Positions 51,749 through 53,923 of a stretch of DNA of 64,000 nt are shown piece after piece. The notes beneath the pieces were generated by a model. It saw nothing but the letters and a program-made list of their open reading frames with translations, made no database searches and had not been told where the DNA came from. Position 1 is the stretch's first letter. Each line of letters opens with the position of its first letter. The translations under genes were made by a program, and so were the position numbers. The stretch is from Lacimicrobium sp. SS2-24 (GTDB lineage Bacteria > Pseudomonadota > Gammaproteobacteria > Enterobacterales > Alteromonadaceae): NCBI RefSeq assembly GCF_002201535.1, contig NZ_NIWW01000002.1:62001-126000 (forward strand). The letters run 5' to 3'.

Positions 51749-51977
51749 GCTGCGTTCCTCTGCAATGTTCACAATTTATTGATGTTGAGCAATACAATGA
51801 GGATAGCGCGTTCATCGGCTGAGCGCTGCTTTTGCGTTATTCGGTGTAAAAACGCCCGTATTGAGCAGGGGCATTTACAATTGGCAACAAGCGAAAACAA
51901 TTCACAACAAACTGATGAAGAACCGTCGCCGCGCAGCCCTTATGCTGTCTGCATTGGAAAACTATGGAGTATCTACG

Positions 51978-52769
51978 GTGACAGGTTACGTAAAAAACAC
52001 GCTTTTTTTGGTTTTGTTTGCCCTTAGCATCAGCGTTCTGCCCGCCAGAGCGACAGTCGTTGAGGTGCAGACGGTATTGGGAAATTTCCAGGTCAATCTG
52101 TTCGACAGCCACACGCCAAAAACGGTCGAAAACTTCCTCGGGTATGTCAATTCTGGTGCTTACTACAACAATGTGGTTCATCGCAGTGCACCGGATTTTG
52201 TGATTCAGGCTGGGGGGTTTACCTACAATGATGATTTTCCGCTGGATCCGGTGTCAAAAGGGCAGCCGGTCATCAATGAACCTGAGTTATCTAATGTCAG
52301 AGGCACCCTTGCCATGGCAAAAACCGCTGGTAATCCCGACAGCGCCACCTCGGAGTGGTTTATCAATCTGGCCGATAACAGTGCGAATCTGGATATTCAG
52401 AACGGCGGTTTCACGGTGTTTGGTCAGGTGTTAGGAGACGGCATGGACATTGTTGACGCCATTGCCCAGTTGCAAACGTACAATGCCGGTGGCGCTTTTA
52501 CTGAGATCCCGTTGCGCGATTATGCCGGTGCACAGGAGACCATCAGTGAAGAAAATCTGGTGTTGATAACGGATGTGGTGGTGATTGACGCCAATACCGA
52601 TACCCATCCTGAGTTACAGCCCGTCGTTAACACCCTCATTGATACGGTGGCGGACAACAATGATGCAGATTCAGGTGGAAGCATAGGTAATGCGCTCTGG
52701 TGGTTATTGGCGCTGACTATTCTGAGAGTATCGCCAGTGGCGCTTCGTTATCACCGTACAAGGGCATAA
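51978..52769 (+). CDS. Exported cyclophilin-type peptidyl-prolyl isomerase with GlyGly-CTERM-like tail
   Basis: 263 residues from GTG 51978, chosen because GGAG lies 8 nt upstream and a signal peptide then begins (MTGYVKNTLFLVLFALSISVLPARA). The cyclophilin core has VVEVQTVLGNFQVNLF, KTVENFLGYVNSGAYYNNVVHR and SEWFINLADN. The C-terminus has SGGSIGNALWWLLALTILR then basic residues, matching the GlyGly-CTERM pattern handled by rhombosortase. It would be exported, processed and possibly surface-displayed by type II secretion. The last 53 bp overlap the convergent solute-binding gene. Confidence 0.87.
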   Translation: MTGYVKNTLFLVLFALSISVLPARATVVEVQTVLGNFQVNLFDSHTPKTVENFLGYVNSGAYYNNVVHRSAPDFVIQAGGFTYNDDFPLDPVSKGQPVINEPELSNVRGTLAMAKTAGNPDSATSEWFINLADNSANLDIQNGGFTVFGQVLGDGMDIVDAIAQLQTYNAGGAFTEIPLRDYAGAQETISEENLVLITDVVVIDANTDTHPELQPVVNTLIDTVADNNDADSGGSIGNALWWLLALTILRVSPVALRYHRTRA

Positions 52770-53625
52770 GCACGTTTTCTTCGTATTGCTGCCAGAAATC
52801 ACTGTTTTGTGTGGCAAACCAGAAACCGAGACTGTTCAGGTAATCTTGTGACTGCAGCACCTGAGGCAACACCTTGTCGATATCATTAACGGTACCCTGT
52901 CCCCACGGGGTATTGCTGCACCCTATGGCCCCGATAATGGGGCTTTGACTGTTTTGCTGGATTGGTAGATAAACCAATGAAGAGTCTTCAGTCAGCTCGA
53001 AATAACGTCCGATGACCGGATAATCCAGGGTGTAATCGAGCCTTCCTAAGGCCACCATATTCAGCGCCAGCGTCGACTTCCCGGACATGACTCTGTGATT
53101 GTTTTGTTCCTGACTGTATTGGTCCAGCAACGGCTGCAGCGCATCTCCGTAGGCCCTGCCCAGAGGGCGTCCGAATTGCAGGGTTTTATCCTGGAGTAAG
53201 GCGGCAAAATCTGCAGGCTCGCCATAACGCTGGCGGATAATTTTCGCCGACTCCGGGCTGGCGATAAGCTGATGAGGCTTATAATACAGGGTCGCTCTGG
53301 AGTACCGGGTTGTCGCCGTGTGTTCACGTTTTATCATACAGGGAAAGCAGACGGGTGCCTGTTCTTCTCTGAGTCGTGCAATGCGAGCCGGGGGGATGGT
53401 GAGCACATCATGATCGACATCGGGCATGGCCCGAATCATTTCATTGACTAAGACATCGCAGAAACCTTGGCCTTTGAGCTCGCCATCGAGAATATGAAAA
53501 GGAGGACCGTCATTGACCGCCCAGGTGATTTTTTGTGCATCTTCAGAAATGAGCGGTTCTGCATGAACCCAACAACTCATCTGCAAGAAGATGAAAAGCC
53601 AACACACCCTGATGCTACTTTCCAT
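52717..53625 (-). CDS. Periplasmic solute-binding-like protein (SBP_bac_3/TIGR02285-like)
   Basis: 302 residues from ATG 53625, supported by GGGAG 5-6 nt upstream; a TTG further upstream is less likely. A signal peptide (MESSIRVCWLFIFLQMSCWVHA) leads to a two-lobed solute-binding fold: ITWAVNDGPPFHILDGELKG, CFPCMIKREH and a distal ALGRLDYTLDYP segment. It resembles the TIGR02285 group of orphan binding proteins, with the pattern ITW...D.PP..I..G..KG. No ABC permease or ATPase is adjacent, so a transport role is not shown. Its 3' end lies antisense to the sorting tail of the cyclophilin gene. Confidence 0.8.
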   Translation of the reverse strand: MESSIRVCWLFIFLQMSCWVHAEPLISEDAQKITWAVNDGPPFHILDGELKGQGFCDVLVNEMIRAMPDVDHDVLTIPPARIARLREEQAPVCFPCMIKREHTATTRYSRATLYYKPHQLIASPESAKIIRQRYGEPADFAALLQDKTLQFGRPLGRAYGDALQPLLDQYSQEQNNHRVMSGKSTLALNMVALGRLDYTLDYPVIGRYFELTEDSSLVYLPIQQNSQSPIIGAIGCSNTPWGQGTVNDIDKVLPQVLQSQDYLNSLGFWFATQNSDFWQQYEENVLMPLYGDNEAPLAILSE

Positions 53626-53923
53626 ATGCACTCCCAAGTCCAGGTGATCGCAGTTCCTTCGGTAAAAGCACCCTTAGGCTCACCGTACCGATGCTTCGTT
53701 GAGTATAACCTAATCTGTGTATTCAGCCGGTTAATCGACGTTAGTTTTAAGTACGGTCTGCCTCATTTTTCGGACCACTTGTCGCGGTAGCCATCTCCTT
53801 TTCTGGTTTAGCGCCCCTGCAAAGCAATGGAAAAGGGAACTTTCTTGTCTGCCAGATATCTATGCCATTACTTTCAATGGACTGTGCCCCTTTTTGTCTG
53901 TGCCATCATCGTCTAACCGTCGC

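Follow-up and report, generated by a model that had tools for sequence, protein, structure and literature searches.

The window, the whole 64,000-nucleotide stretch of Lacimicrobium sp. SS2-24 DNA analysed here, holds on its plus strand a real open reading frame (51978–52769), identified from the open reading frame list and the sequence, for a secreted cyclophilin of 263 amino acids. It starts with GTG, 8 nt downstream of GGAG (51966–51969, plus strand), the likely ribosome-binding site. Judged by eye from the translation, the protein begins with a putative signal peptide, MTGYVKNTLFLVLFALSISVLPARA (51978–52052, plus strand), with likely cleavage after ARA. There follows a cyclophilin-type peptidyl-prolyl isomerase (PPIase) domain (residues 28–169; 52059–52484, plus strand), which matches the profile PF00160 with E 2.7e-35 and 122.4 bits (cut-off 21.7). 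The C-terminus consists of the GlyGly-CTERM-like signature SGGSIG (residues 232–237; 52671–52688, plus strand), a hydrophobic stretch of 12 residues, NALWWLLALTIL (residues 238–249; 52689–52724, plus strand), and a basic end, RVSPVALRYHRTRA (residues 250–263; 52725–52766, plus strand). The initial annotation had described a secreted PPIase ending in just these three elements, and the sequence and the PF00160 match bear this out. By a simple tripartite-tail rule, this is the only GlyGly-type tail among the 124 open reading frames of at least 100 aa in the window. On the minus strand lies a convergent TIGR02285-like gene (52717–53637; 141.5 bits, cut-off 143.3), which overlaps the cyclophilin gene 3′ end against 3′ end over 53 nt (52717–52769).

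An AlphaFold2 model of the window protein (mean pLDDT 84.0) predicts a cyclophilin fold with its last strand at about residues 196–204 and, after it, a helix at the C-terminus (model residues 294–319). The best Foldseek match of this model is 1j2a, the K163T mutant of E. coli cyclophilin B (TM-score by target length 0.88), and the nearest solved structure by sequence is E. coli PpiA (8xck, E 6.3e-29). With E. coli PpiA (8xck, 1clh, 1j2a) the window protein shares the fold, the export signal, the catalytic Arg and the Gln63-type residue, but it differs in having a Trp for a Phe and a C-terminal tail, and in belonging to a separate clade, set apart from eight PpiA-like sequences with an SH-aLRT of 100 in a 120-row tree. 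Against the PpiA equivalog model NF008151 it scores 120.5 bits, under the cut-off of 308.

For the catalytic positions we use what we take to be the human cyclophilin A numbering, namely Arg55, Phe60, Gln63, Gln111 and Phe113. The Arg55- and Gln63-type positions are invariant in 109/109 and 80/80 alignment rows, Arg69 of the window protein (52182–52184, plus strand) being the Arg55 equivalent in the alignment. The Phe60 type is kept in 108/109 and 79/80 rows and the Phe113 type in 107/109 and 79/80. Because these positions are kept, the window cyclophilin is probably enzymatically active. At the Gln111 position, 14 of the 109 rows carry Glu, the window protein (Glu126) included, and six carry Gly or Ser; the Glu could lower its activity. 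The aligned triplet Glu126-Trp127-Phe128 (52353–52361, plus strand) also contains the marker residue of the clade, Trp127: the position after the SATS[QE] motif is Trp in 104/109 and 79/80 rows, while E. coli PpiA has Phe there.

How good a GlyGly-CTERM signal is this tail? Searched with hmmscan, the model TIGR03501 (cut-off 15.5 bits) gave no match to the window protein up to E 10; a tail below the family model, which the initial annotation had named as evidence against its proposal, is thus literally what we found. Genome scans with TIGR03501 returned nothing at the default threshold, neither in the own genome nor in 14 control genomes; at E 10 they returned six matches in the own genome, the window cyclophilin not among them, and matches in 11 of the 14 controls, one of these over the cut-off. 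On a model built from the tails of 42 relatives, the window tail scored 3.9 bits against a median of 22.35 bits for 58 held-out family tails, of which three scored 3.9 bits or less (of the 67 rows not used for the model, 63 received a score, some of them non-GlyGly; the 58 are the family rows alone). At least 3.9 bits were reached by 14 of 2000 shuffles of the last 40 residues of the window protein and by 5 of 308 control ends of open reading frames from the window and loci L001–L040, four of these five coming from loci of the own genome's candidate sorting-tail genes. A whole-genome scan with the relatives' model at E 10 did not list the window protein. The genus mates are weak as well, with 6.7 bits (L012) and 7.3 bits (L013) on the relatives' model and, on TIGR03501, no match for L012 and 9.5 bits for L013.

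The homologues are better recognised. TIGR03501 matched 75 of 109 (L011–L111, L113, L115, L117–L120, L122 and L123; eight rows lie outside the family) at E ≤ 10. At E ≤ 0.022, a value read from other scored TIGR03501 matches as roughly equal to the 15.5-bit cut-off, 38 of the 109 remained. Because of these matches, we regard the window protein, as judged by sequence models, as a weak member of a recognisable GlyGly-CTERM set. The homologues carry recognisable tails of the GlyGly-CTERM type proposed in the initial annotation, while the own tail stays under the TIGR03501 cut-off.

Low scores in all three genus members would also be expected if the sorting signal had decayed in the species or genus, leaving a plain membrane anchor that would keep the cyclophilin in the inner membrane, facing the periplasm. 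The end of the tail overlaps the convergent neighbour in all three examined genomes of the genus (53, 47 and 44 nt), and the last codons common to both genes may have contributed to such a decay. However, four of the five other loci with this neighbour overlap too (48, 17, 17 and 45 nt; L015 does not), so that overlap alone does not explain a weak tail. We initially considered the overlap a genus-specific cause and dropped this idea, since the true stop positions place an overlap of 17–53 nt in seven of the eight loci holding the convergent neighbour. While it may shape the tail, an overlap that also occurs outside the genus cannot be singled out as the reason for its weakness. The convergent gene adjoins the cyclophilin in only 8 of 30 loci, the own locus included, and hence has no strong functional link to it. 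Against decay speak also the SGG or GGG, the hydrophobic stretch and the basic end, which are retained in all three genus members, and a genome that retains rhombosortase and other GlyGly proteins; we consider it unlikely.

Within the sampled Alteromonadaceae, an orthologue at E < 1e-40 was found in 101 of 147 genomes (counted by hand), at 102 loci. One of these, L112, is truncated at the end of its contig; of the 101 readable loci, 100 carry a GlyGly-type tail, the exception being L038 with a hydrophobic and basic tail without SGG. These counts come from our second tail rule. The first mistook SGG tails preceded by Pro-x-Pro for PEP tails; under the second, the PEP tail of L123, outside the family, counts as GlyGly, and L118 and L164 come out as plain hydrophobic. 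Left out of the second-rule count as duplicates were L167, L168, L219, L223, L231 and L241 (the same as L117, L123, L023, L039, L113 and L045). The initial annotation had called a surface-sorted foldase unusual; inside the family this does not apply, as the tail is present in almost all orthologues. Most likely, the window cyclophilin is a rhombosortase cargo with a weak tail, ordinary for Alteromonadaceae orthologues. Rhombosortase itself is over the cut-off in 144 of the 147 genomes, so that its co-occurrence with the tail is uninformative inside the family. Two genomes with GlyGly-tailed orthologues, G029 and G080, have no rhombosortase over the cut-off in assemblies fragmented into 320 and 800 contigs. 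Since the orthologue is absent from 46 of the 147 genomes, nearly all of them with rhombosortase, the system can do without the cyclophilin.

The machinery for sorting is present in the genome of the window (G000; 3.7 Mb, 21 contigs, 100% complete, window on contig C12). The search for rhombosortase proposed by the initial annotation found a protein of 197 aa on contig C1, with 176.6 bits on TIGR03902 (cut-off 84), so that the proposal is not refuted by a lack of rhombosortase, the first of the annotation's two counter-arguments. At E 0.001 TIGR03902 matches all 14 control genomes (rhomboids generally), and we therefore counted rhombosortase only over the cut-off. The type II secretin GspD reaches 545.9 bits (cut-off 351.35), and beside it lies an open reading frame named GspE-like by eye. 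The presence of GspD is consistent with the suggestion in the initial annotation that the cyclophilin may help type II-secreted enzymes to fold. The genome also encodes an exosortase (L146, G000:C16:226973-227725; 243.6 bits, cut-off 25.7). Other GlyGly-type proteins, which the initial annotation also proposed to look for, are there: an SH3-domain protein (L251/L005) is over the TIGR03501 cut-off with 21.1 and 16.3 bits in two scans, and a choice-of-anchor H protein (L007, 15.0 bits) and a DUF3466 protein (L253/L009, 13.9 bits), both with GlyGly-like tails, are below it. L006, the sole further protein to exceed the cut-off in the genome scan at E 10 (15.6 bits on TIGR03501), was rejected as a PEP-CTERM protein (TIGR02595, 20.1 bits). 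The SH3-domain protein L251 (TIGR03501 match at G000:C12:169191-169256) also shows a marginal transglycosylase (SLT) match under its cut-off. With the known GlyGly-CTERM/rhombosortase system (TIGR03501/TIGR03902; Haft and Varghese 2011, PMC3237569; Gadwal et al. 2018, PMC6219818) the window protein thus shares the tripartite SGG, hydrophobic and basic tail at the extreme C-terminus and a genome with rhombosortase and type II secretin; it differs in being a cyclophilin and in a tail under the model cut-off.

We favour, with some reserve, a Sec-exported cyclophilin that is cut by rhombosortase, probably lipid-anchored and moved outside by type II secretion to isomerise prolyl bonds there. The signal peptide would direct export by Sec, and the C-terminal hydrophobic stretch would hold the protein in the inner membrane until rhombosortase cuts at the SGG motif. 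A phosphoethanolamine-lipid anchor would then probably be added, and type II secretion would move the protein to the outer face of the cell, where the cyclophilin domain could isomerise prolyl bonds of surface or secreted proteins. For cleavage, lipid attachment and transport we rely on the analogy to VesB of Vibrio cholerae (PMC6219818), by which the cyclophilin should be held at the surface; catalysis we infer from residue conservation only, and what it would fold, its clients, is a guess.

Do tail and rhombosortase go together beyond the family? We built a tree from 120 of 195 rows (every fourth family locus of L012–L111 and all remaining rows), on which PEP, JDVT and SGxG labels were set manually, guided by NCBIfam results and visual inspection. 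The GlyGly tails fall into almost a single group, with two changes. PEP tails require five changes on the best tree but only one if just the well-supported branches count; support is weak for 52 of the 117 inner branches. In 40 genomes of unstated completeness reached via named loci, six of them already in the family or class samples through the duplicate loci given above, rhombosortase was over the cut-off in 10/10 with GlyGly or SGxG tails versus 4/30 with other ends, a difference whose Fisher probability of 1.2e-6 overstates the case, as the tree offers one independent pair. With roughly one origin of the GlyGly tail on this tree, we read the association as a single contrast and not as independent evidence; the independent-pairs test, with its one pair, had no power. 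Among tree rows without a GlyGly tail, 6 of 38 come from genomes with rhombosortase.

Among 369 genomes sampled across the class, 12 contained an orthologue at E < 1e-40 and 126 had rhombosortase over the cut-off. G000, G001 and G024 have tails of GlyGly type and G389 has an SGxG variant; these four genomes are rhombosortase-positive. In three further genomes, G229 (with two copies), G360 and G245, the tails are PEP-type and rhombosortase does not exceed the cut-off. G229 (97% complete) has no TIGR03902 match at all and an exosortase of 252.3 bits; one of its two copies, L118, exceeds the VPLPA-CTERM cut-off (25.9 versus 25.35 bits), and the PEP-type tails of L164, L117 and L123 are under the model cut-off. 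Beside one PEP-tailed copy in G229 (L164, G229:C31:16500-24658), a further cyclophilin-like domain lies in an 1840-aa open frame. In G226, where rhombosortase is not over the cut-off, the orthologue carries choice-of-anchor D and U domains and a weak JDVT-CTERM match; a similar choice-of-anchor protein occurs in G339, as a weaker homologue (E 1.2e-33). On the JDVT-CTERM model (cut-off 27), L157 reached 23.0 and L159 14.2 bits. L172, labelled JDVT for the tree by a Gly-Cys rule, gave no JDVT match at E ≤ 1. MrtJ (NF033192) is over its cut-off in G226 and G525 and was not found in G339.

We abandoned the simple idea that the tail type follows the sorting enzyme present, since the own genome has both rhombosortase and exosortase and since no exosortase was found in the PEP-tailed metagenome-assembled genomes (MAGs) G360 (77% complete) and G245 (73% complete), the latter with MrtJ over the cut-off. 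Tails of the PEP-CTERM/VPLPA-CTERM type, as used with exosortase, are carried by the clade relatives L117, L118, L123, L164, L195, L230 and L242, of which L118, L195 and L230 are over a model cut-off and the others below; the window protein differs from them by its tail of GlyGly type, even though an exosortase is encoded in its genome too.

The remaining orthologues of the class sample have no hydrophobic tail (G363 and G468 with rhombosortase not over the cut-off, G377 and G409 with it over). Such tailless clade members, together with a periplasmic E. coli cyclophilin among the nearest solved structures, would suit a rhombosortase that merely frees the protein to work, like PpiA, as a soluble foldase in the periplasm or outside the cell, with no surface anchor. 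The other anchoring tails of relatives and their adhesin-like domains point instead to association with the surface or matrix, and we judge release as a soluble enzyme to be quite improbable. That the tail is a chance hydrophobic end without a sorting role, as its weak model score might suggest, is very hard to reconcile with its conservation in all but one of the readable family loci, many of them only about 40–50% identical to the window protein.

A scan with one genome per species, using an alignment led by a PEP-tailed member, gave at least 575 relatives among the 597 matched stretches listed, of which we kept the best 80, nine of these cut by a contig end. The record names of these best 80 of at least 575 include Pseudomonadota, Verrucomicrobiota, Planctomycetota, Acidobacteriota, Lentisphaerota and others, many being MAGs whose names may be wrong. 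Among the 80, TIGR03501 matched five at E ≤ 1. For GlyGly-type tails outside the family, L184 and L203 score 15.1 and 15.0 bits (cut-off 15.5) among the matches listed, and L181, L211 and L231 gave no TIGR03501 match at E ≤ 1. Among the same best 80, L195 and L230 are over the PEP-CTERM cut-off (TIGR02595) and L242 is below it, three carry choice-of-anchor U, and Ig, TIG, FG-GAP, Calx-beta, cadherin, dockerin and CshA-type domains each occur in one to eight. These C-terminal domains and tails are all of kinds found in extracellular proteins. By the first tail rule, 59 of these best 80 have no hydrophobic tail of a recognised kind.

We tentatively propose, as a possibility that we think less likely than not, that this exported cyclophilin clade is specialised for work outside the cell. 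Its members would be attached by the sorting system that each lineage employs for them, be it rhombosortase, exosortase or perhaps MrtJ/JDVT, or fused to adhesin-like domains, and the foldase would travel with the cargo of the system and help folding or refolding on the surface. Varied sorting tails on a retained helper suggest that its place outside the cell matters, and it is this wider pattern, a single clade of cyclophilins in which the tails for surface sorting are exchanged, that most deserves pursuit. ATP is absent outside the cell, and to our knowledge little is known about how type II and sorted surface proteins stay folded after leaving the periplasm. An ATP-independent prolyl isomerase that shares its anchor signal with the surrounding enzymes would be a concrete and testable candidate for a folding helper at the cell surface, and the exchange of tails in the clade provides a natural set of cases in which to study cargo recognition by sorting systems.

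In those parts of the literature on GlyGly-CTERM, rhombosortase, PEP-CTERM, exosortase, choice-of-anchor or type II secretion with cyclophilins that were at hand, we found no description of such a foldase; the supplementary list of PMC3237569 may already include cyclophilins. The main texts of PMC3237569, PMC6219818 and PMC13393428 contain neither 'isomerase' nor 'cyclophilin'. A possible lead comes from PMC4960237, in which the proteins of the Akkermansia outer-membrane fraction include a peptidyl-prolyl isomerase, Amuc_1026.

Finally, four of the tree sequences, L177, L202, L207 and L208, form a subgroup (SH-aLRT 96) from Pseudomonadales/Cellvibrionales MAGs with a plain hydrophobic and basic tail in which we saw no known sorting motif, and which is perhaps another sorting signal.
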